In this document: positions 51,998-64,000 of the stretch, piece by piece
Position numbering within the stretch: position 1 is the first letter of the stretch
Layout: the number at the start of each line of letters is the position of its first letter
Assembly: GCF_019139535.1 (NCBI RefSeq)
Contig: NZ_CP077073.1
Location: 3,810,501 to 3,874,500 of the forward strand
Length of the DNA: 64,000 bases
DNA from: Pseudomonas muyukensis
GTDB lineage: Bacteria; Pseudomonadota; Gammaproteobacteria; Pseudomonadales; Pseudomonadaceae
Reading direction: 5' to 3'
Notes under the pieces: model-generated
What the model was told of the DNA's origin: nothing
The model's database searches: none
The model's input: only the letters and a program-made list of their open reading frames with translations
Position numbers and translations under genes: made by a program

Positions 51998-53416
51998 TTA
52001 CGGCATCACAGGCGGCACGTACTGCAAGGTGGTACCCAGCGCCCACAGCAACACCAGTACCAGCGGGATATGCACCAGCAACTGCACGAACGAGAAACCG
52101 ATCAGGTCACGCGCCTTGAGCCCTAGCACGCCCAACAGCGGCAGCATGTAGAACGGGTTGATCAGGTTCGGCAACGCCTCGGCGGCGTTGTAGATCTGCA
52201 CGGCCCAGCCCAGGTGGTACTGCAGGTCGTTGGCCACCAGCATCACGTACGGTGCCTCGATGATCCACTTGCCGCCCCCGGACGGGATGAAGAAGCCGAG
52301 CACCGCCGAGTACACGCCCATCAGCAGCGCATAGGTATCGTGGGTGGCGATCTGGGTGAAGAACAGCGAGATGTGGTGGGCCAGGGTCTGGGCATCGGCG
52401 CCCTTGACCTGGGTGAGGATGGCGGCGATCGAGCCGTACAACGGGAACTGGATCAACACCCCGGTGGTGGTCGGCACGGCGCGCGCCACGGCATCGAGGA
52501 AGCTGCGCGGACGCCAGTGCAGCAAGGCGCCGAGCATGATGAACAGCAGGTTGTAGGTATTCAGCCCGGAGATCGCGGTGATCGCGGGCTTGGTGGCGAA
52601 CTCCTGGTACAGCCAGCCGCCGGCCAGGGCCACCAGCAACAGGATCAGGATCGGGCTGTACTCCAGCCATTCGCCCGGGCGGCTGCGCTGTGGCGACGGC
52701 GGCGCGCTGAAGCTTGGATCGACCCCGCAGTCCTCGGCGCTGCGCGCGCTGTTCGGGCCTGGGGCGGTGGCGTAGGCGATCACCAGCGAGACGATCACCA
52801 ACGCCGCCAGCAGCACCCCGGACTGCCAGAGGAAGATGGTCTCGGTGAACGGAATCACCCCGGTGATCGACAGGATCGACGGTGGCAGGCTGGCCGGGTT
52901 GGCCTGCAGCTGCGCGGCCGACGACGACAAGCCCAACGCCCAGACGGCGCCCAGGCCCAGGTAGGCGGCGGCGCCGGCGGCGCGGTAGTCCATCTTCAGG
53001 TCCTTGCGCCGGGCCAGGGCCCGTACCAGCAGGCCACCGAACACCAGCGACAGGCCCCAGTTGAGCAGGGACGCGAGCATCGAGATCAGCGCCACCCAGC
53101 ACACCGCCGAGCGGCCGTTGTTCGGCAGGCGCGCCAGGCGGTCGATCAACCGCGCGGCGGGTGGCGAACTGGCCACCACATAGCCGCCGATGACCACGAA
53201 GGCCATTTGCATGGTGAACGGGATCAGGCTCCAGAAGCCATCGCCAAAGGCCTTGGCGGTGTCGGTGGGCTTAGCGCCCATGGCCAGGGCGCCCAGGGAC
53301 ACCAGCATCACGGCCAAAGCGGCGAACACCCAGGAGTCGGGGAACCAGCGTTCGGCCCAGTTGGAGCAGCGCAGGGCAAAGCGGGCGGAGCGGCTGTCTT
53401 GAATTTCAGCGGCCAC
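51998..53416 (-). CDS. AtoE-family short-chain fatty acid transporter
   Basis: A 472-residue membrane protein with about 12 helices. The family (AtoE, TIGR00366-like) moves short-chain fatty acids such as butyrate. Signatures include FTMQMAFVVIGGYVVASSPP, LISMLASLLNWGLSLVFGGL and the C-terminal FFIPSGGGKWIIEAPYVMLV. GTG 53416 (VAAEIQDSRS) has AAGGA 7 bp upstream, while the frame from ATG 53548 adds 44 residues with no match to the family. No beta-oxidation or CoA-transferase gene is beside it. Confidence 0.88.
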   Translation of the reverse strand: MAAEIQDSRSARFALRCSNWAERWFPDSWVFAALAVMLVSLGALAMGAKPTDTAKAFGDGFWSLIPFTMQMAFVVIGGYVVASSPPAARLIDRLARLPNNGRSAVCWVALISMLASLLNWGLSLVFGGLLVRALARRKDLKMDYRAAGAAAYLGLGAVWALGLSSSAAQLQANPASLPPSILSITGVIPFTETIFLWQSGVLLAALVIVSLVIAYATAPGPNSARSAEDCGVDPSFSAPPSPQRSRPGEWLEYSPILILLLVALAGGWLYQEFATKPAITAISGLNTYNLLFIMLGALLHWRPRSFLDAVARAVPTTTGVLIQFPLYGSIAAILTQVKGADAQTLAHHISLFFTQIATHDTYALLMGVYSAVLGFFIPSGGGKWIIEAPYVMLVANDLQYHLGWAVQIYNAAEALPNLINPFYMLPLLGVLGLKARDLIGFSFVQLLVHIPLVLVLLWALGTTLQYVPPVMP

Positions 53417-53800
53417 GGTAATGTCCTTTTCTTGTTGGATTGTCGGATTACCGGGCGAGTCTATAAGGGGTGCGTGGTTGGGGGCCTCCATGAACCGAGG
53501 GGCTACGACTAAAGTATTAGCCTGGCGCGAGAGGTGTGTTGCGTCCAAGTGCTTGGCGATGGGGCTGTGCCGTGCTCAAGATCGAGCGCCGCCCGCGCGG
53601 CGCATCGCGGATGAATCTGCTCCTACATGTCTTTCGGGCCAGTTAGGCCTGTGGGGCCATGGGCGCCCGCCTTGGCGCATGCCTTGATATTGTGTCGGGC
53701 CAACGAATACCTCCCAGGATTGGCCCGAAACACATGTAGGAGCGGATTCATCCGCGATGCGCCGCGAAAGCGGCGCTCGATTTCATGGACGCTACAACGG
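53417..53800. other. Gene-free region between the AtoE-family gene and the LamG operon
   Basis: This 384-bp stretch holds the promoter of the AtoE-family gene and, from 53581, the large inverted repeat annotated separately. I see no gene in it. Confidence 0.7.
53581..53781. repeat. Inverted repeat with 60-bp arms
   Basis: Arms 53581-53640 and 53722-53781 are inverted copies with about 5 mismatches in 60, running from ATCGAGCGCCGC to a shared TTTCGGGCC. The 81-bp loop is unrelated sequence. Each arm itself contains a GCGCCGC-GCGGCGC hairpin. The ATCGAGCGCCGC core also occurs at 11415-11448. It sits just beyond the last gene of the LamG operon and could act as its 3' boundary. Confidence 0.9.
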
Positions 53801-54829
53801 CTACTTAGGCCCGATGTCGGTGTAAAGCGTGGTGACACTGCCCGCCACGATCAGCTTCACCGGCCCCCCCGTCGCATCCAGGCGCACCGCGCGGGTGTGT
53901 GGATGCGGGTCGGCAAAGTACGCCGCCGGGTTGTGATACAGCCGGTCGGCGGCGCCTTGCACCAGCTCGCCGCGGATGGTCACCTTGGGCTTCTTGCCCG
54001 CAGGGATGCCCGACCAGTCGCTGCCGAACGACAGGGTGAAGGTGAACAGCGTCTGCCAATTGGCGGGGATGTCCTGGCCGACCCAGGCGTACTTGAAGTC
54101 GTTGTCCAGGGTGTTGTTGTCGGAATGGCTGAGGGTCTTGCCATTGAGCGGCGTGCCCGAGGAAATGGTGTACTTGGTGCCTTTGGGGATGTTCTCGAAT
54201 ACCACCGCCAGGTCCACCAGCGCGCCTTCGTCGCCCTGGTTGTAGCCGGCTGTGCTGACCACCTGCGGCAGGTCGCCGCGGACCATCTGCACGTTGCGCT
54301 GGGCAATGTTGGCGTTCTTCGACAGCACGTCCGCCAGGTCGGTGATGTTGGTCACGCCCTTCAGCGGGTTGGGGTGGTCCGGGGTGCTGGCCACCGCGAT
54401 CATGCAGTAGTGGTCGCTGGTGTCTGGCGGCACCCAGGTGAAGCAATCGAGGGACGCGCCGATGGCCCCGGCCTTGATGGCGAACGGCGGGTTCTTGTCG
54501 CCCCCCGAGGTCTTCAACTGGTTGCCTTCCCACAGGTACGGGTACAACAGGATGTTGGGGGTGGCCCAGAACAGGTTCCAGTACCCCGCCAGCTCGCCGG
54601 CGGTGTAGTTCTTGCCACGCACGTAGAGGTAGTTGGGCAGGCCGATGTACAGCTTGTTGTCGTAGCCGTTGTTGTAGTTGGCCGGGTCGGTCAGTACCGA
54701 GGGGACGGCCAGCGGCTCCTTGCCGGCGAGGATGATGTCGGGCGAGGACGACGAGGCGCTGCGCGGTACCGTGCCATTCTCCGCCAGGGTCGCGCGCACG
54801 ACGATGCCGCTCCAGGTTTCAGTAGCCAT
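53801..54829 (-). CDS. Protein of unknown function in LamG operon (342 aa)
   Basis: A 342-residue protein without signal peptide or membrane helix, last gene of the operon. The N-terminus is MATETWSGIVVRATLAENGT, then SSSSPDIILAGKEPLAVP and the tract YLYVRGKNYTAGELAGYWNL. The middle is beta-rich with aromatic and Asp/Asn-rich segments, as in lectin-like or carbohydrate-binding folds (DNDFKYAWVGQDIPANWQTL). I do not recognise the family. It starts 21 bp after the 181-aa gene, so all members should be translated from one transcript. Base composition is normal for the genome. Confidence 0.75.
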   Translation of the reverse strand: MATETWSGIVVRATLAENGTVPRSASSSSPDIILAGKEPLAVPSVLTDPANYNNGYDNKLYIGLPNYLYVRGKNYTAGELAGYWNLFWATPNILLYPYLWEGNQLKTSGGDKNPPFAIKAGAIGASLDCFTWVPPDTSDHYCMIAVASTPDHPNPLKGVTNITDLADVLSKNANIAQRNVQMVRGDLPQVVSTAGYNQGDEGALVDLAVVFENIPKGTKYTISSGTPLNGKTLSHSDNNTLDNDFKYAWVGQDIPANWQTLFTFTLSFGSDWSGIPAGKKPKVTIRGELVQGAADRLYHNPAAYFADPHPHTRAVRLDATGGPVKLIVAGSVTTLYTDIGPK

Positions 54830-54850
54830 GTTGCGTGCTCCTTGCAGGGG

Positions 54851-55396
54851 TTATTTCGACAGGTTGATCTGCACCTTCTGCAGCAGGGTCTTCTTCACCG
54901 GCCCACCCGAGCTGCCATCGATGCTCGACAGGCTCAGGGTGATCGACGAGGTGCTCTTGAGCTGCTCGGGCTTGGCCACCCACAGGTTGAGGCTCAGGTC
55001 CATCTCGAAGGCTTCCTGCTTCTTGCTCTGCTTGCCCAGCAGGCTGGTGCCGGCGATGTCCTGGCGCGAGACCGCAAGCTTGGGGTTGCTGGCATCCACC
55101 GACACTTGCGTGTCCGCCGGGATGTCGGTGTAGCGCACCTCCAGGTCCAGTTCGGCGAAGGTGACGATCTGCGCGTACTGGGCACTGACCACCAGGCTGG
55201 CCGGGTCGTTCACCGCCTGGGTGTTCGCGGCGGTGAGCAAGGTGTACGGCGTGCCGTCGGAGGTCTGCTGGCGGGCGATGGCGTAGCCGGTCTGCGCCGA
55301 GACGCTCGAGGCGACGTTGACCAGGCCGCCGATGCCAGTCGAGACAATCTGCAGGCCGGAGAAGATTCCGGTCACTGCAAAGCTTGTATCTGCCAT
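54851..55396 (-). CDS. Protein of unknown function in LamG operon (181 aa)
   Basis: A 181-residue protein. The N-terminal 30 residues are glycine-rich and hydrophobic (GIFSGLQIVSTGIGGLVNVA), probably not a cleavable signal because there is no basic start. The remainder is beta-rich (VTFAELDLEVRYTDIPADTQ, SSITLSLSSIDGSSG). I do not recognise the family. GGAG precedes the ATG, 29 bp after the stop of the giant gene and 21 bp before the next gene. The conserved spacing suggests a stoichiometric partner of the giant protein, which is inference. Confidence 0.75.
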   Translation of the reverse strand: MADTSFAVTGIFSGLQIVSTGIGGLVNVASSVSAQTGYAIARQQTSDGTPYTLLTAANTQAVNDPASLVVSAQYAQIVTFAELDLEVRYTDIPADTQVSVDASNPKLAVSRQDIAGTSLLGKQSKKQEAFEMDLSLNLWVAKPEQLKSTSSITLSLSSIDGSSGGPVKKTLLQKVQINLSK

Positions 55397-55425
55397 GTTC
55401 GTAGCTCCTTTACGTGGGTTGTGGG

Positions 55426-58400
55426 TCAGTTGGTGCGGTAGTGCTCTGCTTCGTACTTGCTGGCCATGTAGTTCAGCAAGTCGACCCGCAGTTCGGCCAG
55501 CTCGAGGAACTCGTCACTCCCGTACACCTTGGCCGCCGTGTAGAAGGCAGCCCACCAGGGGATCAGGTCCTTGAGCAGGCCTGGGCCGGCGCTGGGGCTG
55601 CCCAGCACCGTGTCGATCGCCGTCCCGATCTCCAGGCGAGTCGGGTCGGTCTTGTCCAGTTGCTTGTCGATCACGCTCACCAGCCAGTGGTTGGATGGCA
55701 GGTTGGCCGGGGGCGTGATGTTGGGTGCGTTGGTGTCGGCCTTGACCGGCTGGAACGCCGCTGGCACGCGGCTGACATAGGTGGTGCGGTACATCACCCG
55801 CCACGGCTCGCTGGGGTTGTTCATGGCCTCGCGCATGGCAGCGGCCGAGGCGCTGGTGGAATTGTTCAGCCAGTTCTGGTCCACCACCTGCGCCAATACG
55901 CTGAAGTTGTCGGCGGCCGGCGCCAGCAGGAACGACATGTAGCGGTAGGCATCGACCTTGCCCGGTGCGGCGTTGGGCCCATAGCCGCTGAACTTCAGGT
56001 TGCCGCCCTCCTGGGTGAGGATCGGCGCGGGCAGGAAGTTGGTCGGGCTTACGCTGCAGCTCAGGGCAAAGCCGTTGGACAGTGCCTCGACCTTGGTCGC
56101 GGTCATGGTCCAGGTGTTGCCCAGCAGGGTGTCGGCCTCGATGTAGTAGCCGCCGAACGGCGTGCCGATATCGGCCTTGAACTCCAGCCCCGCGGCGAAG
56201 GTCAGGCTGCTGGTGCCGGTGTAAGTCTCGCTATAGCTGTTGGCGAAGCTGTGCTCTTCCTTGTGCAGCCCCCCCGCCGCCGTCCACACGTAGTTGTTGT
56301 AGAGGCTGCGCAGGTTGCGCTGGTTGGCGAAGTCGTAGAACTGGTTGGACTTGAGCTTGTCGCGCAGGCTGTCCATGGCCGCCACCGTGCGGTACTTCTT
56401 GACATCGAACTGGTCGTAGTAAGCCTTGAGCTGCTGCTCCTGCTTCTCGATCCTGCGCTTGGTGTCGTAGGCTTCGAGCGGCTTGAAGTAGCTGCCGCGC
56501 TCATCGTTGGCTTCGGGGTAGTCCGGGTCGTTGACCAGGCCGACCTTGCCGTCCAGGGTGCCGTTCTTCACATAGCGCGGGTTGATCGGAAAATCGATGA
56601 TGTTGGTGTCCACCGGGATCGTGGTGTTCGGCGCCAGCACATAGCCGACGGGGGTTTGCGTGCCCTTGAGCGCCTGCATGTAGAGGTCGGCGGTGGACGA
56701 CTTGACCAGGGCAATGCCCACGTTGTTCTGGATATAGCGCCGCCCCACCGTCAGGTTGAGCACCGCGTTGGCCGCCTCCCAGTTGCCGGTGGGGGTCATC
56801 GAGGTGGCCAGGCTCACGCTGCTGGAATGGTTCTGCGACACCTCCAGGCCGTCGCCCAGGTTGCCCGACAGCACCATCTTGGCGCCGCCGGTGATGGTGG
56901 TCTCCAGCACCATGGTCTCGGCCTCGGCGCCCAGGCCCACCGACACATCGCTCTTGCTCTTCTGGTACAGGCCGCCCTTGAGGTTGAATTCGCCGTTGAA
57001 GGTCGAGGTCTTGTTGCCGGTGAAGGTCCAGCTCTTGCTTTCGCTCTCCTGGTAGGTGACCGAGCAGGCCGAGGCGTAGTCCGACGCCGGGCCACCCATG
57101 TCGCCGACCCAGTAGGCCAGGGTCTGGTTCTCGCTGGGCAGCGGTGGGCCGCCTTCGATGAAGCCGATGATGGTTGGCTTGCTCTGCACCTGGCCGACGA
57201 ACAGGGTGTCCAGGTCACCCACTTTGTAGCCCACCTCCAGCGCCGTCACGCCGTCGCTGCTCTGGTAGAAATAGCCGCGCTTCATCACGCTGAAGATCTT
57301 GCCGTAGGCGTCCTTCTCGGCACTGGCGTACTCGATCACCGAAGGCTGGCCCTGGATCCGCGCGACGTAGTAGTCCGGCGTGCCGCCGAGGGTGTTGACC
57401 ACGTACTGCGCCTCGTTCTGGATCGGCGCCGCGGCGCTGCTCCACTGCGGCGGGCTACCCGCCGGGGTCAGCGTGCCGTTGTTGCCAAGGCCTGTGAAGT
57501 CGAACAGCGTCGGGCCGGAGCCGGCCTCGATGCGCCAGTAGCCGGCCAGGTGCTCCTCGCCACCGGTCAGCGCCTTGTTCATGCTCTCGCGGATCTGCTG
57601 CTCGGTCAGGCGCGTGGAGAACAGCCGTACATCGTCGATGCGGCCGCTGTAGGGCAGCGTCAGCGTCGTGCCCTGGCGGGCGCCGCCGAAGGTGAACTGG
57701 CTATCCTGGTAGCCGCCGACATCGGCCACCTTCAGGCGCAGCGGCAGGCTGCCGCGGCCGTTGACCACCAGGCTGGCCTGGGCCACGTCCTGCCAGATCG
57801 TCCACAACTGGTTGCTGCTCAGAATCAGGGTGTTGTTGCCGGTCAGGTCCTTGGCGTTGGTGCCGGCCATCTCGTCGAAGTCCCAGGCAGCCACCAGGCC
57901 ATCGGTGGAGGCTGGCGTGAGGCGCAAGTCGTAGGTCTGGGCGATCTGGTCGGTGGCCAGGGTGCGGTTCCACACCCGCACGTGGGAAATCAGGCCCTCG
58001 TAGTTGAAGGTCAGGTCGTCGTTGACCCCCAGGTAGAAGGACGAGGTCTGCGTACGCACCGTGGCCGGGCGCGCCAGGTCGTTGCGCATCTGCTCGGCCA
58101 CCAGGGCGCCGTTGAGGTACAACCCGGCCCGCACGTAGTACTTCTGCGCCACGTACTCCTTGCTGCCGCTGTCGTTGGCCACGGTGCCGGTACTGAAGTT
58201 CAGGGCCACGTAGGTGGTCACCCCGGCCGTGATGGCGAACTTCACCTCGTGGGTGAAATTGACAGGTGGGTCGTCGTACTTGGGTGGGTCCATCTGCAAC
58301 TGCACGGTCAGGCACACCTGGCCGAGGGTGTTGATGTACAGCGAATAGCTGCCGTTCTTCTCCAGCAGGATCTGCTTGCGGTTCAACGCCGACGGTGCGA

Positions 58401-61400
58401 TCCAGGCTTCCAGGGCGAAGGTGCTGGAGGGGTTGAAGGCATCGCCGTCGCTGACCTTGCCGTAGTTGCTGGCCAGCAGCCTCAGCCCATGCCCTTGGCG
58501 CGAGGCCAGCGCGACATGGGTCCAGCCCTTGAGGATGCGGTTGGAGGTCAACACCAGCTCGTTGCGCCCGGCATAGGGCACCTGGAATGCTCCCTGCGCG
58601 CTCCAGGCGGGGCTGGCCGGGTTGGTCAGCGTGGCGTTGTACTCGACGCCGGTGGCGGCCGAGTTGGTGATCACGATGCCGCTGCCTTCGGCCAGGTTCC
58701 AGCGGATGCCGAGCATCGAGTCGGTGTCGGCGAAGCCTTGGCTGAAGCTGTTCTGCATCTGGCTGTCGCTCAGCGCCCGCTGCCAGAACGCCACGCCATT
58801 GACCCGGGCCGGCAGGCTGCCGCCCTGGTTGCTGCCCAGCATCAACGCGCCGAGGTCGCCGCTGAAGCTGTTGCTGGCCGTGGCCTTGACCGGGGCCCCG
58901 GCGTTGACCGACAGCTTGAGCGTCACCTGCCCTTGCCCGGCGAGCTCCACTACTGCGGTGAGGCAGGTCCAGGCCCCCACCGGCAGCGGCTGGGCCGTTT
59001 TCACCTCGCCCTGGTCGTCCAGGAAGGTGAACACCGCCTTGCCATACTCATCCACCGCCAACTGCACGTACTGGTCGCTGCCGCGCACCTGCGAGACCGA
59101 CAGCAGCGTGCCACTCAGGCCGCTCTGCGGCAGGTAGACATAGACCTGCAAGGACAACGCCGGCGGCTTGAAGTTGAAGGCCCGGGTCACGTAGGTGCTG
59201 TCGCTCATCTCCAGGCCCGGGCCCTGGCGCGCGCCAATCATGTATTGCACCGGCAGGTCCGGGTGCTTGCGGTTGCCCAGCACGTTATAGGACAGCGCCC
59301 GCGACGACGGGTTGATGCGGCTGTCGCTCAGGGCCAGCCAGGCCTCCACGGTGAGGTCGTCGGTGATCGCCAATTGGTCCGAGGGCGAGTACGCCTTGTC
59401 GACATTGAACGCCACGTAGTTGCTCTTGTTCGGCGGGTTCAGGTCGAGGCTGAAGCTCGGAGGCAGCGGCATCCAGCCGCCGTTGACCCCAGGCGTCAGT
59501 ACCGGGGCGATGCCGCCCGGGTGCACCGAGGTGTTGGTCAGCCGCCCTACCCCGCCGTCGGTGGGCGGTGCGTCGACCAACGCCCCGAACAGCATCGAGC
59601 CACGAATGGCGTCGTCCCGGCCATTGAACGCCAGCCGCGCGCCCTGGATCACTGCGGCGCTGGTCAAGGCCTGGGGGGCCATCCCGGGCGCATCGTAGCT
59701 TGGCCCCTGGAACAATACGCGCAGCAGCCCGGCATAGGCGAACGCGCCACCTTCGGGCGCGGGTGCCGGGGTGTCGACCACATCGGCGCTCAAGCCGTTG
59801 CCCAGGGCATAGATCAAGGTCGCCAGGCCGCCCTGGTAGCCGCTGGGGTAGGCGTAGCCGCTGGCGTCGCCATTGAGCACCTTGACGAACCCGGCCTGCT
59901 CGCGGGGCACGTCGGGCAGGCTGACGCCGCAGATGAGCACGTTGCACAGCAGCGGCTGCGTGGCGGCACTGACCGTCACCGTGAAGTCCTTCTGCTCGTC
60001 GCGCACGAACACCAGCACATGGCTGACCTGCTCGTCGGAGCGTGCCAGGCTCAGGGGCAACCCGTAGGCACGGCTGCCAGCGGTGGTCACGCTGCTGTAG
60101 TCATAATGCGGCGCCTTGCCGGCGAACACATCGAGCAAGGTGCGTGGCGTCGCCGGCACGGCGGGCCAATGCTGGTTGAGGGTGGCGCTGGCCGGCCAGC
60201 GCGGCGGCGCCGCCAGGCTGATGTCGACCACCACGAATTCATCGCTGGCCCCGGCTGCGACCGCCACCGAAGTCAGCTTGACCGGCAACTGCGGCACCGA
60301 GGTCAGCAGGAAGAAGCTGCCGTTGCCGCCCGCGCGGGTGGGCACCAGCACCGCCGGCGCGCTGCCTGCATAGTCGAAATAGGGTGTGGACTGGTCGAGC
60401 ACCTGGGGGTCGTCCGGGTTGTTGGAAGCAGCGCCGTTCCAGATCTGCGTCAGCTGTGCGATATCCCGTGGCAGGCCCCGCCAGGTCTCCGTGCCGACGC
60501 TTTGCGCGGCCTCCACAAGGATGTCGCAGAGCAGCTCGGACACGCTGGAGGCGGCGACCGTGATCTGCGTGCTGTTCATGTAGGTGCCGACCCGGTGGGC
60601 GACGAAATTCACGAAGCCGCTCTGGGTGGCGTCCGGGGCCACCAGCAGCCGCGCGGCCACCGGTGCCCAGTGCTCGCAGCTGACGCCCCGGTACAGCGCC
60701 ACCGAGGTCGCGGGCAGCTCCAGCGCCGCCGCCCTGGCCCCGCTGCTGCCCCATTGGGTGGTCCAGTCGACGGTGAAGGTGGCACGCGCCGACTGGGTGG
60801 AGAACTGCGCCACCGTCAGCAGGTCGCCGTCGCCGGGGTAGTACAGGTGCAGCAGACCGTCGGAGCCGTCGATCAGGCAGGTGGCCGCGTTCGGGCGGAT
60901 GAACCCGGCAAGGCCCGCGTAGTAGGTCAGGCCCATGGCATCAATGTAGAACTCACCGCTCATGTCGCTGTTGACCGGCGAGGCCGAAGGTTCCAGGCGC
61001 GCGCCCTGCACCGTCACTTTCACGCCCGAAGCGGCCTGGTTGAGCGTGGTCGGCGGGTTGTCGCCGTAGTTGACGCTGTTGCAGTCCAGCTGCACTACGG
61101 CGGTGCCCGCCACCGTGATAACGAGGCGTTTCAACGCGCCGATGAAGCCGTTGCTGTCCGCCGCCACCAGCGCCATGGCCGTGCCGCAGGGCTCGGCCGT
61201 GGTGCTGCAGGGCGTGAGGGGTACCGGTGCGTCGTTCACCGTCAGGGTGAAGGGGTTGTCGCCCTTGCCCGCATAGCGGACGTGCAGGTCGCTCCACACG
61301 TCGTTGAACAGCACCGGGTGCAGGGTGCGGCAGCTGACCCGCGCGCTGCCATTGCCAAAGCCCACTTCGAGCTTGTCGCCATCGACGATCCAGACATAGG

Positions 61401-62538
61401 GCGCGAGGGTCTTCTCCTCGCCCTGGGGCGCACCGCCCAGCACCTTCAGCCCGTCGCCCTTGACGCCTGGCGCCAGCATCAGGCCGATCTCGAACGGGCC
61501 CTTGATCGCCAGCGGGTTGGTGCCGCTGGCGGGCTGCAGCAGGTTGAGGCTGGACACGCCGTCGAAACGCAGGTCGAACTCGGCCGGGACGATGTTGGAG
61601 GTGACGATCACCCCCGAGAGGTTGGCCATGGTGCCGTTCACGCCGATGGCCGAGTCCAGCGTGACGGTGCCGTCGGCGACCGTCAGGGTGATCATCACCC
61701 GGGTGGCGCGGCGCACGCCGATGCTCGAACCATCGGGCTGCACCACCTTCTCATGCTTGACGTAGGTCACCGCGCGGGGCGCCGAGGTGATCGCCAGCGC
61801 GGCGCTGGTGCCGGCCTTGGCCACGCCGAACACGCTGTCCGGCTGGATGCGCAGGTCGCTGCCCACGGGTTTGCCGGCCACCTCGAACAGGCCATTGTCA
61901 GTGGCGGGGAAGTTGAACAGCTTGACCGAGGTGGCGCTGCTGTCCAGGGCCAGGAACTGCCAGGCGAAACGCTCGCTGCCGGCGATCGGCAGCAGCAGCG
62001 CGTCGAAATGGCCGTCGCTCACGCCGGTGATCATCGACAGCTCGAGGGAAGGCTCCAGGAAAGGCTGGCCGTCGGGGTCGAGGAAGTCCTGCTTGTCGGA
62101 CTTGTCGGCGGGCACGTCTTCCTTGTGGCTGCGGGCGTAGCGGACTTCCCACGCCGGTGACAGTTCGTAGTCGGTGGTCTTCTGGTCGGTGCCCGACTTG
62201 GTCTTGAGCAGGCGAAAACGGTTCACGTACAGGGTGCCGTTCATCGACTGCTGGATGACCGAAATGTACTTCTGGTCGGTCACCACCCGAAACGGCGCCA
62301 GCGACGGCACCAGGGTCGAGGCATCGCAGTCCACGGCGATGATGCTCATGCCCACCTGGCGCACCTGCTGGGTGAAGGTCACCGCGGTGAAACCCGACCA
62401 GTCGAGGTCATCGTCGTCGCTGTCGACGTCCTGGCCGAGCACATCGAAGTAGATGGCCTGCTTGCCCGCCACTTCGCGGCCGAACACCACCACCACACCC
62501 TGGAAATTGACCGATACGATCTGATTGAACTGCTGCAC
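55426..62538 (-). CDS. Giant LamG/concanavalin-like repeat protein (2370 aa)
   Basis: A 2370-residue protein of unknown function. The start is GTG 62538 (reads QQFNQIVSVNFQGVVVVFG) with GGGAGGGG upstream, 23 bp after the oxidoreductase stop; the longer frame is a shadow of that gene. The N-terminal ~1000 residues are beta-rich with no family I recognise. LamG/ConA-like segments lie at about 1050-1250 (LTVEAWLALSDSRINPSS), about 1370-1535 (FALEAWIAPSALNRKQILLE, SHVRVWNRTLATDQIAQTYD) and about 1580-1650 (YSGRIDDVRLFSTRLTEQQI). A Ser/Thr-rich alternating stretch (about 1820-1910) follows, then a charged helix (RRIEKQEQQLKAYYDQFDVK) and a helical C-terminus. There is no signal peptide and no membrane anchor is visible. 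Its role may be a carbohydrate-binding surface or secreted protein, or a toxin; none is shown. Confidence 0.85.
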   Translation of the reverse strand: MQQFNQIVSVNFQGVVVVFGREVAGKQAIYFDVLGQDVDSDDDDLDWSGFTAVTFTQQVRQVGMSIIAVDCDASTLVPSLAPFRVVTDQKYISVIQQSMNGTLYVNRFRLLKTKSGTDQKTTDYELSPAWEVRYARSHKEDVPADKSDKQDFLDPDGQPFLEPSLELSMITGVSDGHFDALLLPIAGSERFAWQFLALDSSATSVKLFNFPATDNGLFEVAGKPVGSDLRIQPDSVFGVAKAGTSAALAITSAPRAVTYVKHEKVVQPDGSSIGVRRATRVMITLTVADGTVTLDSAIGVNGTMANLSGVIVTSNIVPAEFDLRFDGVSSLNLLQPASGTNPLAIKGPFEIGLMLAPGVKGDGLKVLGGAPQGEEKTLAPYVWIVDGDKLEVGFGNGSARVSCRTLHPVLFNDVWSDLHVRYAGKGDNPFTLTVNDAPVPLTPCSTTAEPCGTAMALVAADSNGFIGALKRLVITVAGTAVVQLDCNSVNYGDNPPTTLNQAASGVKVTVQGARLEPSASPVNSDMSGEFYIDAMGLTYYAGLAGFIRPNAATCLIDGSDGLLHLYYPGDGDLLTVAQFSTQSARATFTVDWTTQWGSSGARAAALELPATSVALYRGVSCEHWAPVAARLLVAPDATQSGFVNFVAHRVGTYMNSTQITVAASSVSELLCDILVEAAQSVGTETWRGLPRDIAQLTQIWNGAASNNPDDPQVLDQSTPYFDYAGSAPAVLVPTRAGGNGSFFLLTSVPQLPVKLTSVAVAAGASDEFVVVDISLAAPPRWPASATLNQHWPAVPATPRTLLDVFAGKAPHYDYSSVTTAGSRAYGLPLSLARSDEQVSHVLVFVRDEQKDFTVTVSAATQPLLCNVLICGVSLPDVPREQAGFVKVLNGDASGYAYPSGYQGGLATLIYALGNGLSADVVDTPAPAPEGGAFAYAGLLRVLFQGPSYDAPGMAPQALTSAAVIQGARLAFNGRDDAIRGSMLFGALVDAPPTDGGVGRLTNTSVHPGGIAPVLTPGVNGGWMPLPPSFSLDLNPPNKSNYVAFNVDKAYSPSDQLAITDDLTVEAWLALSDSRINPSSRALSYNVLGNRKHPDLPVQYMIGARQGPGLEMSDSTYVTRAFNFKPPALSLQVYVYLPQSGLSGTLLSVSQVRGSDQYVQLAVDEYGKAVFTFLDDQGEVKTAQPLPVGAWTCLTAVVELAGQGQVTLKLSVNAGAPVKATASNSFSGDLGALMLGSNQGGSLPARVNGVAFWQRALSDSQMQNSFSQGFADTDSMLGIRWNLAEGSGIVITNSAATGVEYNATLTNPASPAWSAQGAFQVPYAGRNELVLTSNRILKGWTHVALASRQGHGLRLLASNYGKVSDGDAFNPSSTFALEAWIAPSALNRKQILLEKNGSYSLYINTLGQVCLTVQLQMDPPKYDDPPVNFTHEVKFAITAGVTTYVALNFSTGTVANDSGSKEYVAQKYYVRAGLYLNGALVAEQMRNDLARPATVRTQTSSFYLGVNDDLTFNYEGLISHVRVWNRTLATDQIAQTYDLRLTPASTDGLVAAWDFDEMAGTNAKDLTGNNTLILSSNQLWTIWQDVAQASLVVNGRGSLPLRLKVADVGGYQDSQFTFGGARQGTTLTLPYSGRIDDVRLFSTRLTEQQIRESMNKALTGGEEHLAGYWRIEAGSGPTLFDFTGLGNNGTLTPAGSPPQWSSAAAPIQNEAQYVVNTLGGTPDYYVARIQGQPSVIEYASAEKDAYGKIFSVMKRGYFYQSSDGVTALEVGYKVGDLDTLFVGQVQSKPTIIGFIEGGPPLPSENQTLAYWVGDMGGPASDYASACSVTYQESESKSWTFTGNKTSTFNGEFNLKGGLYQKSKSDVSVGLGAEAETMVLETTITGGAKMVLSGNLGDGLEVSQNHSSSVSLATSMTPTGNWEAANAVLNLTVGRRYIQNNVGIALVKSSTADLYMQALKGTQTPVGYVLAPNTTIPVDTNIIDFPINPRYVKNGTLDGKVGLVNDPDYPEANDERGSYFKPLEAYDTKRRIEKQEQQLKAYYDQFDVKKYRTVAAMDSLRDKLKSNQFYDFANQRNLRSLYNNYVWTAAGGLHKEEHSFANSYSETYTGTSSLTFAAGLEFKADIGTPFGGYYIEADTLLGNTWTMTATKVEALSNGFALSCSVSPTNFLPAPILTQEGGNLKFSGYGPNAAPGKVDAYRYMSFLLAPAADNFSVLAQVVDQNWLNNSTSASAAAMREAMNNPSEPWRVMYRTTYVSRVPAAFQPVKADTNAPNITPPANLPSNHWLVSVIDKQLDKTDPTRLEIGTAIDTVLGSPSAGPGLLKDLIPWWAAFYTAAKVYGSDEFLELAELRVDLLNYMASKYEAEHYRTN

Positions 62539-62561
62539 GCTATCCCCTCCCTGTTGATCGG

Positions 62562-63608
62562 CTATGGCTGCAGGAACACCGGCTGGCCGCTGCGGCTGGA
62601 CTCGAGAATGGCTTCGGCCAACTGCACCGCGCGCAGGCCGTCGCGGGCCTGGCACACCGGCGGCGTGCCATGGCGGATGCAGGCGTACAGGTGGCGGTGT
62701 TCGTTGGGAAAGGCGTCGTCGTTGGTGCCCCAGTCGTGCTGCCAGGTCCAGGTGCTGACCGGCTGCTCGGGCCGGTCGTAGCGGTAGAGGCTCAGGACCT
62801 TCTCGCCCTGGGCATTGGGAAACTGCAGCACGCCCTGCTCGCCGACCACATCGAAGCTCGGGCGGATCCCGCCGCGCCCCACGCACAAGGGCTCCCAGCC
62901 CAGGCCGCTGGCGGCCCAGGACTCCGACCACAGCGCCTGGTCGCCGGCGACGAAATCGATCACCGCGATCACCGTGTCATGGGCACTGGTCGGCCCGCGC
63001 TTGAGCTTGCGGGTCGAGGCATAGACCTTGTGTGCCGGGCCGAACATCCAGGTCACGAAATCCAGCCAGTGGGTGTGCTCGAACACCACCCCGCCGCCCA
63101 GCTCGGCATCGTGGATGGCCGGGCTTTCAGCCCCCTTGCACACCGCCCAGACATCGCGGAACACCAGCGGGCGCCCCAGCACGCCGCTTTGCACGACCTT
63201 GCGCAGGTTGCCCGCGTCGGCGGAAAAGCGCATCGGGTAGCCCAGCAGGAACACCCGCTGGCTGTCCTCGGCCACCCGCACCACCTCCTGGCATTGCGCC
63301 GAGGTCTTGGCCAGGGGCTTTTCGCAGAACACGTGCTTGTTGGCCCGCAGCGCCGCGATGGCCAGTTCGGCGTGGTTGAACGGCGGCGTGAGGATCCACA
63401 CGCACTCGATCAGCGGGTCGTCCAGCACCTGCTGCACGTCCTCGGTCCAGCCCGCTACCCGCCACTTGCGCGCCAGCGCCTGGGCCTTGCCCGGCACGCT
63501 GTCGCACAGGCAGCGCACGTCGAACAGGTCCCTGAGCTTGTCCAGCTCTTCCAGGTGCCAGTCGCACACCGTACCGCAGCCGATCAAGGCCGTTCGTATC
63601 GCGCTCAT
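62562..63608 (-). CDS. Gfo/Idh/MocA-family NAD(P)-dependent oxidoreductase
   Basis: A 348-residue oxidoreductase. The N-terminal Rossmann fold has ALIGCGTVCDWHLEELDKLR and the EKP motif HVFCEKPLAKTSAQCQEVVR; the C-terminal GFO_IDH_MocA domain has HDAELGGGVVFEHTHWLDFV. The family acts on sugars and inositols, including UDP-sugars. ATG 63608 overlaps the asparagine synthase stop (ATGA, 63605-63608) and has GGAGGAG upstream; the longer frame is rejected. With the asparagine synthase it suggests modification of a sugar or glycoconjugate within the operon, by inference. Confidence 0.9.
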   Translation of the reverse strand: MSAIRTALIGCGTVCDWHLEELDKLRDLFDVRCLCDSVPGKAQALARKWRVAGWTEDVQQVLDDPLIECVWILTPPFNHAELAIAALRANKHVFCEKPLAKTSAQCQEVVRVAEDSQRVFLLGYPMRFSADAGNLRKVVQSGVLGRPLVFRDVWAVCKGAESPAIHDAELGGGVVFEHTHWLDFVTWMFGPAHKVYASTRKLKRGPTSAHDTVIAVIDFVAGDQALWSESWAASGLGWEPLCVGRGGIRPSFDVVGEQGVLQFPNAQGEKVLSLYRYDRPEQPVSTWTWQHDWGTNDDAFPNEHRHLYACIRHGTPPVCQARDGLRAVQLAEAILESSRSGQPVFLQP

Positions 63609-64000
63609 CCGCTCCTCCGCAAGCTGAAGGCCCGGCTGCTGTCGAGCCATTGTTGAAACATCAGCACCGACCACAGCCGCTCTTCCCTGAAGTGCTCGCC
63701 GTGGTGCAGCAATCGCGTCCACTCCCAGCGCACCTGGGCCACATCGAAGAAACCTTCGTCACCCAGGCGACCCGGCGCCAGCAGGTGCTCGGCCCAGTCG
63801 CGCAGGGGGTGGCGCAGCAGCGGGCTCACCCAGATGCTGAAGCCCAGCTTCTTGCGTTCGAGCAAAGCCCTGGGGATGTACTGGTAGGCCACCTGGCGCA
63901 GCAGCCACTTGGAGGTGTTCTTGCGGTGCTTGAGGTGGTGGGGCAAGCCCCTGGCGAAGTCCAGCAGCGCCCCGTCGAGAAATGGCATGGCCACCCGCAG
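63605..64000 (-). CDS. Asparagine synthase (glutamine-hydrolysing), C-terminal part
   Basis: The last 131 residues of an AsnB-like protein that runs off the right edge. The sequence has the ATP-pyrophosphatase C-terminal pattern MPFLDGALLDFARGLPHHLK followed by KNTSKWLLRQVAYQYIPRAL and RKKLGFSIWVSPLLRHPLRD. AsnB-like proteins transfer an amide from glutamine and occur in surface-polysaccharide and natural-product clusters as well as in asparagine synthesis. The stop overlaps the oxidoreductase start. The frame is open to the window end. Confidence 0.85.
   Translation of the reverse strand: MRVAMPFLDGALLDFARGLPHHLKHRKNTSKWLLRQVAYQYIPRALLERKKLGFSIWVSPLLRHPLRDWAEHLLAPGRLGDEGFFDVAQVRWEWTRLLHHGEHFREERLWSVLMFQQWLDSSRAFSLRRSG

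Follow-up and report, generated by a model that had tools for sequence, protein, structure and literature searches.

Predicted aminocyclitol genes joined to a giant LamG protein in an inserted block of Pseudomonas muyukensis

Overview of the locus

An inserted block of 15 genes in Pseudomonas muyukensis joins enzymes resembling those of 2-deoxystreptamine biosynthesis to a very large LamG protein and two small partners. The genes lie at the right end of, and beyond, a 64,000-nucleotide stretch of DNA (the window; G000:C1:3810501-3874500 of a single-contig 5.53-Mb genome). All five reading frames concerned are on the minus strand of the window and encode an AsnB-like amidotransferase (AsnB), a Gfo/Idh/MocA oxidoreductase (MocA), the giant LamG protein (the giant), and proteins of 181 and 342 residues (p181 and p342). 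They are the last genes of a co-directional run of 13, which reaches a radical SAM gene at G000:C1:3884294. Together with a divergent kinase/nucleotidyltransferase pair (hddA and hddC, to G000:C1:3886440) the run makes up the block, which is inserted between atoA and atoE and spans 22.5 kb. We tentatively read the trio of giant, p181, and p342 as a large complex that binds glycan, may form a pore or serve in delivery, and bears or recognizes a dedicated aminocyclitol oligosaccharide, a reading that we consider possible rather than probable.

The five genes were described as an operon in a first-pass annotation made from the window alone, and its coordinates agree exactly with ours. From AsnB to p342 the junctions are a 4-bp ATGA overlap (63605-63608) and gaps of 23, 29, and 21 bp. 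Strong promoters or terminators in these junctions had been named as evidence that would speak against a common unit, and no promoter-like or terminator-like match lies inside the four. The genes are co-directional as described, but the proposed five-gene unit was too small. The operon goes on past the right edge, as predicted, with eight more genes beyond AsnB, and most of the enzyme genes upstream of AsnB are joined by 4-bp overlaps. A terminator-like site is found 3' of p342 on the minus strand (53730-53712); it is weak, since the site total is no higher than in shuffles. The G+C content of the block (0.667) differs little from that of the rest of the window (0.657). It falls to 0.583 at L002:10001-11500, around the spacer between the divergent radical SAM and hddA genes, which is likely a control region.

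Table 1. Features of the inserted block and its left edge. Plain positions are those of the window; L002 positions refer to the extended locus.
Feature	Position	Strand	Comment
atoE-like gene	51998-53548	minus	
Left edge of block, spacer between p342 stop and atoE-like gene	53549..53800	.	atoE directly beside atoA in relatives L095-L097
p342, 342 aa	53801..54829	minus	modeled as two tandem Ig/CARDB-like beta sandwiches
p181, 181 aa	54851..55396	minus	profile weakly similar to second half of p342
Giant LamG protein, 2370 aa	55426..62538	minus	GTG start
Giant C-terminal module, residues 1595-2370	55429..57756	minus	four modeled beta strands of 30-39 residues
Giant N-terminal conserved region, residues 1-320	61579..62538	minus	hidden Markov model (HMM) match in 50/57 giant loci
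Gfo/Idh/MocA oxidoreductase	62562..63608	minus	inositol-dehydrogenase-like, candidate aminocyclitol dehydrogenase
AsnB-like amidotransferase, 3' part	63605..64000	minus	whole gene L002:605-2497, 630 aa
UDP-GlcNAc 2-epimerase-like gene	L002:2494-3852	same as AsnB	
Dehydroquinate (DHQ) synthase-family cyclase	L002:3890-5068	same as AsnB	
DegT aminotransferase	L002:5065-6339	same as AsnB	
GT2	L002:6336 to about 7145	same as AsnB	
PIG-L deacetylase	L002:7126-7833	same as AsnB	
GT4	L002:7830-8921	same as AsnB	
Methyltransferase	L002:8918-9739	same as AsnB	
Radical SAM/SPASM protein	L002:9736-10794	same as AsnB	
hddA-like gene	L002:11161-12204	divergent from run	
hddC-like gene	L002:12221-12940	divergent from run	

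Enzymes of the block

The cyclase and the aminotransferase are most similar to enzymes that act on 2-deoxy-scyllo-inosose (DOI). In PDB matches the cyclase scores 210 bits to DOI synthase (2d2x) versus 130 bits to a dehydroquinate synthase. Its score with the aroB model (214 bits) is below the cut-off of 305, and a separate AroB over the cut-off is encoded elsewhere in the genome. By similarity the cyclase is a predicted DOI synthase. The best PDB match of the aminotransferase is glutamine:DOI aminotransferase (5w70) at 376 bits, with the next kind of protein at 183 bits, and it is assigned as an L-glutamine:DOI aminotransferase. MocA, correctly taken for a sugar-type oxidoreductase in the first-pass annotation, matches the Pfam Gfo/Idh/MocA family at 96 bits and reads as inositol-dehydrogenase-like. 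It is one candidate for the dehydrogenase that precedes the second amination; the other is the radical SAM/SPASM protein, which has no PDB match at 1e-3, and a BtrN structure is present in the PDB.

AsnB and MocA sit within what reads as an aminocyclitol pathway with a putative order of steps and a putative product. Glucose-6-phosphate would be converted to DOI and then to 2-deoxy-scyllo-inosamine, followed by oxidation by MocA. The aminocyclitol would next be glycosylated, deacetylated, methylated, and amidated, giving a small oligosaccharide in the cytoplasm. No transporter or resistance family was found among the 15 genes of the block with Pfam and NCBIfam, suggesting that the product stays with the protein and is not a released antibiotic, although export could be encoded elsewhere. 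In AsnB a leader of about 16 residues precedes the Cys-Gly-Gly of class-II amidotransferases, here and in the copies of L008 and L013. The catalytic cysteine would therefore reach position 2 only by removal of the leader or by use of another start.

Distribution of the block in Pseudomonas

Comparison with other Pseudomonas genomes shows the same gene set at two chromosomal sites. Excluding the locus itself, 17 atoA loci of relatives were compared, with about 1.5 kb of flank per side. Three of them have atoA directly beside atoE (L095, L096, and L097), and the remaining 14 show no atoE within the stretch compared. In this genome and in G329 the 15 genes of the block stand between atoA and atoE, and in P. 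entomophila COR5 (L008) atoE follows p342. The gene order is the same in COR5, in G329, and, at a different site, in P. lactucae MAFF 301380 (L013 and L125). The latter has matches to 15 of the 15 genes, with no atoA or atoE in L125 and no atoE within 2 kb after p342. The gap between MocA and the giant is 23 to about 35 bp in all four genomes.

Ratios of nonsynonymous to synonymous substitution rates (dN/dS) are 0.04-0.53 for the 12 genes compared with L008 and 0.04-0.28 for the 15 compared with G329. In the comparison with P. lactucae they are 0.11-0.30 for 15 genes, several of which were aligned over only a part. These values fit real genes under purifying selection. GT2 has one in-frame stop in each comparison, ascribed to a tried start (L002:7169) that lies too far upstream. 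In the P. lactucae draft the giant is in four pieces over three frames, and AsnB, the cyclase, the PIG-L deacetylase, and the radical SAM protein are also split. The split stretch contains no N, and either decay or sequencing error is possible. Intact giants at 84-87% identity are found in databases (P0006, from Pseudomonas sp. ADAK18, and P0007). Among named relatives, strains of P. entomophila have the closest p342, p181, and giant (97%).

Within the genus, close copies of the aminotransferase and the giant occur together. The aminotransferase is found in eight of 298 genomes, three at 93-100% identity (ours included) and five at 46-47%. The giant is found in four of the 298; the three close ones (97-100%) are in the same three genomes as the close aminotransferase, one of which (G270) is probably the same genome as the COR5 record, and the fourth is a distant giant in G071. 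A larger draw of 398 genomes gives five, adding a distant giant in G455. None of the five genomes with a 46-47% aminotransferase is among the matches listed for p342 or the giant. In P. aegrilactucae (L032) the trio is present but the aminocyclitol enzymes are not. Beside its giant, at L032:17538-19763, two p342-like copies lie in one reading frame.

The giant protein and its partners

The giant contains three Laminin_G_3 stretches (Pfam, 89 bits versus a cut-off of 27.6) and is thus LamG/ConA-like, as the first-pass annotation recognized for this 2370-residue protein. Against PDB sequences there was no match at E 1, and no signal peptide is visible. The long strands of its modeled C-terminal module are rich in serine, threonine, and glycine, which make up 0.35 of its two hairpins versus 0.235 of the module. 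Secretins are at the top of the Foldseek list for this model, with CytK, aerolysin, and alpha-hemolysin lower; the likeness to pore proteins is weak, and the absence of other folds from such lists is not evidence.

Relatives of the giant are widespread. At least 99 database proteins match it among 7,993 scored candidates, and 57 giant loci were identified by scanning GTDB species genomes. Their record titles name Pseudomonas, Rhodobacteraceae, Desulfoluna, Leekyejoonella, Amycolatopsis, Sphingobacterium, cyanobacteria, and others, which we take to span several phyla. Both scan patterns came from the C-terminal module, so its detection by HMM in 56 of the 57 loci is by construction, but the N-terminal 320 residues were not a scan pattern and are found in 50. 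Relatives are present on plasmids of Salipiger, Nostoc, Planktothrix, Calothrix, and Streptomyces. Uncharacterized giants in databases bear the name "LamG-like jellyroll fold domain-containing protein". They belong to the same family as this giant, and the name covers the LamG domain alone, not the conserved ends or the neighboring genes.

The partner proteins differ among loci. Matches to p342 by tblastn adjoin the giant in 15 of the 57 (L008-L019, L024, L032, and L056), and p181 is matched in eight by tblastn and in ten by HMM, including a p342-like frame in L056. Only 30 of the loci comprise 26 kb or more, so partner counts are lower bounds and absence is partly due to contig ends. A same-class genome outside the scan (L126) has a giant, p342, and a third small gene that matches the second half of the p342 profile at 4e-7. 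Proteins of one cluster, the collar group, adjoin the giant in ten loci (L020-L023, L026, L028, L031, L042, L043, and L051), and both members tested carry the Pfam Collar domain. In three loci (L036-L038) the neighbors have sub-threshold Hint matches only. These giants stand beside cysteine-rich proteins (sub-threshold pretoxin-HINT/Hint) and a protein of roughly 200 residues. No partner was identified in the remaining 29 loci. Aminocyclitol enzymes are present in two (L008 and L013), both from Pseudomonas. The 15 loci with p342 versus two with the enzymes suggest that the giant-p342 pair is widespread and that the enzyme link is lineage-specific. Conserved gene order had been proposed as a check that the genes form a system, and their separate occurrence in most genomes as evidence against one. 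The results divide these ideas: the giant adjoins p342 in several phyla and the enzymes and trio behave as one unit in some Pseudomonas, but this unit is not a general rule.

The small proteins were left unrecognized by the first-pass annotation, and indeed neither p181 nor p342 is matched by a Pfam family at E 1 or by an NCBIfam family above the cut-off. No signal peptide was seen by eye in p342, and its sole match to PDB sequences is a chitodextrinase at 0.036. It is matched at 1e-6 in four of 274 genomes of the class, ours included. Weak, distant homologues form tandem pairs in G277, G171, G248, and G339, where they adjoin a protein of roughly 1,180 residues (three genomes) or a DUF6603 protein (one). 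A single distant homologue (L085:15004-16059) immediately precedes annotated Tc toxin genes on the Burkholderia ubonensis plasmid pRF23. The giant shares no domain at E 1e-3 with these large neighbors (the 1,183-residue protein of L087, the DUF6603 protein of L089, and the Tc genes of L085). From this distribution, p342 may be an accessory that serves several large proteins.

Function of the complex and alternative explanations

The evidence is consistent with a large complex that is supplied with its own glycan. The giant, p181, and p342 may form one complex in which the LamG domains would bind glycan and the Ig-like p181 and p342 would serve as accessory subunits. Beta hairpins of the C-terminal module could form a pore or channel in an oligomer. 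The enzymes may modify the giant or make its ligand, so that the complex would carry the oligosaccharide as a covalent decoration or in bound form. It might leave the cell with no exporter of its own and act on other cells as a weapon or a delivery particle. Several results point this way. The block is one unit, because atoA adjoins atoE in three relatives, the block stands there in this genome, G329, and COR5, and P. lactucae has it elsewhere. The cyclase and aminotransferase match DOI enzymes, the 15 genes lack a transporter family, and p342 adjoins the giant in 15 of the 57 loci. Hints of a toxin-like role come from the p342 homologue beside Tc genes, the Foldseek list headed by secretins, and the hairpins rich in serine, threonine, and glycine.

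Some results weigh against this explanation. The hydrophobic alternation of the C-terminal hairpins is at the 63rd-82nd percentile in an amphipathic-strand test, which is not significant and leaves the pore unsupported. Of the nine run enzymes with tblastn matches in L008 and L013, none is matched in the other 55 giant loci, an absence that is partly due to contig ends. The five split genes of the P. lactucae copy lower the odds of a working glycan-supplied complex and raise those of a chance association.

An adhesin or biofilm-matrix complex is a rather unlikely alternative, though only slightly less favored. Here the LamG and Ig-like domains would attach to glycans on surfaces, and the pathway would supply a surface or matrix glycan for the giant to bind, with no pore. 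It is unlikely, to a greater degree, that an aminoglycoside-type cluster for a small molecule merely lies beside an unrelated giant-protein module and has moved with it. The DOI-type enzymes of the block fit such a cluster, the trio stands without them in other taxa, and an aminoglycoside-like cluster is reported from Pseudomonas Ps639 (PMC8719888). However, the gene order and the short gap between MocA and the giant are kept in four genomes at two sites, and the giant is close in three of the three sampled genomes with a close aminotransferase, ours included. The missing transporter and resistance families also differ from the cluster of G364, which has an ABC transporter. A Tc toxin or other known injection machine would fit the size of the giant, the lack of visible signal peptides, and the one p342 homologue beside Tc genes, but it is very improbable, as no Tc-type family of Pfam or NCBIfam matches the trio, the block has no RHS or TcC-like family, and HMMs of giant regions at E 1e-3 miss the open reading frames (ORFs) of the Tc locus L085.

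Other identities were rejected. No TcA, TcB, or TcC family was found in the trio. A phage tail was rejected because no homologue of the giant C-terminus (1e-3) or of p342 (1e-2) was found by tblastn in 50,697 phage records, aside from matches of two PHROG families of unknown function to giant residues 1630-1692, in the LamG region. For anti-phage defense, PADLOC models at 0.01 did not match the giant, MocA, p181, p342, or AsnB, the five proteins given of the 15.

Comparison with known systems

The enzymes resemble those of 2-deoxystreptamine aminoglycoside clusters, which include the butirosin and neomycin/paromomycin types. Shared features are the DOI synthase-like cyclase, the glutamine:DOI aminotransferase, the PIG-L deacetylase, GT4, and candidate dehydrogenases. 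The block adds MocA, AsnB, the epimerase, and hddA/hddC, runs straight into the giant trio, and differs in having no recognized export or self-resistance family. As far as tested, it falls outside the ordinary aminoglycoside clusters. G364 (L128), one of the five genomes with a 46-47% aminotransferase, has a more antibiotic-like, aminoglycoside-like cluster with a DOI synthase-like cyclase, the aminotransferase, PIG-L, GT4, a GMC oxidoreductase, a class-III aminotransferase, and an ABC transporter. A 1,234-residue protein without a Pfam family at 1e-5 is also encoded there.

Two other kinds of systems combine similar parts. Serine-rich repeat adhesin loci have glycosylation islands next to large surface proteins, and there, as in the block, glycan enzymes are genetically tied to one very large protein. 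The block differs in its aminocyclitol chemistry, in having no secretion genes seen, and in a giant with no visible signal peptide. Tc complexes likewise consist of a very large signal-less protein with smaller partners, and a distant p342 homologue adjoins a Tc cluster, but the giant and its partners lack Tc families.

The combination appears to be new. A literature search that covered few subscription papers noticed no paper that ties LamG giants to aminocyclitol clusters or describes such a unit, and in PMC9111745 LamG and aminoglycoside genes come up in separate matters. As far as seen, the pieces are of known kinds, while their combination and the partner sets of the giant are undescribed. 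A broader and slightly more doubtful proposal is that the family represents an undescribed class of modular lectin/pore complexes, signal-less and very large, that occur across phyla and combine conserved ends with exchangeable partners (Ig-like p181/p342, tail-collar, or Hint-like). In these Pseudomonas it would have acquired its own aminocyclitol biosynthesis, with an aminoglycoside-type sugar as a machine part and not a free antibiotic. If this is true, 2-deoxystreptamine-type chemistry, a known antibiotic scaffold, has a second use, in modifying a giant protein complex or providing its ligand, and the widespread LamG proteins of roughly 2,000-3,000 residues gain a testable role and defined partners. 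Even without the glycan link, the association of the giant with p342 across distant bacteria would constitute a multi-protein system that is, so far as seen, undescribed.

Other observations

Several features were noted around related loci. Among recurrent neighbors, cluster 10 reads as dehydrogenases and lies far from the giant. The distant giant of G071 (L090:7288-13634) is in two ORFs, for which error, decay, and a true split are all possible. In P. lactucae a long reading frame that looks helical by eye follows p342 beside the trio (L013:18750-20863). The flank of that block contains PAS and isocitrate-lyase-like genes (named by eye), and look-alikes are found near the G071 giant. Genes adjoining the latter (L090) recur in P. 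orientalis (L037); together with the P. lactucae flank they may mark a shared integration hotspot.

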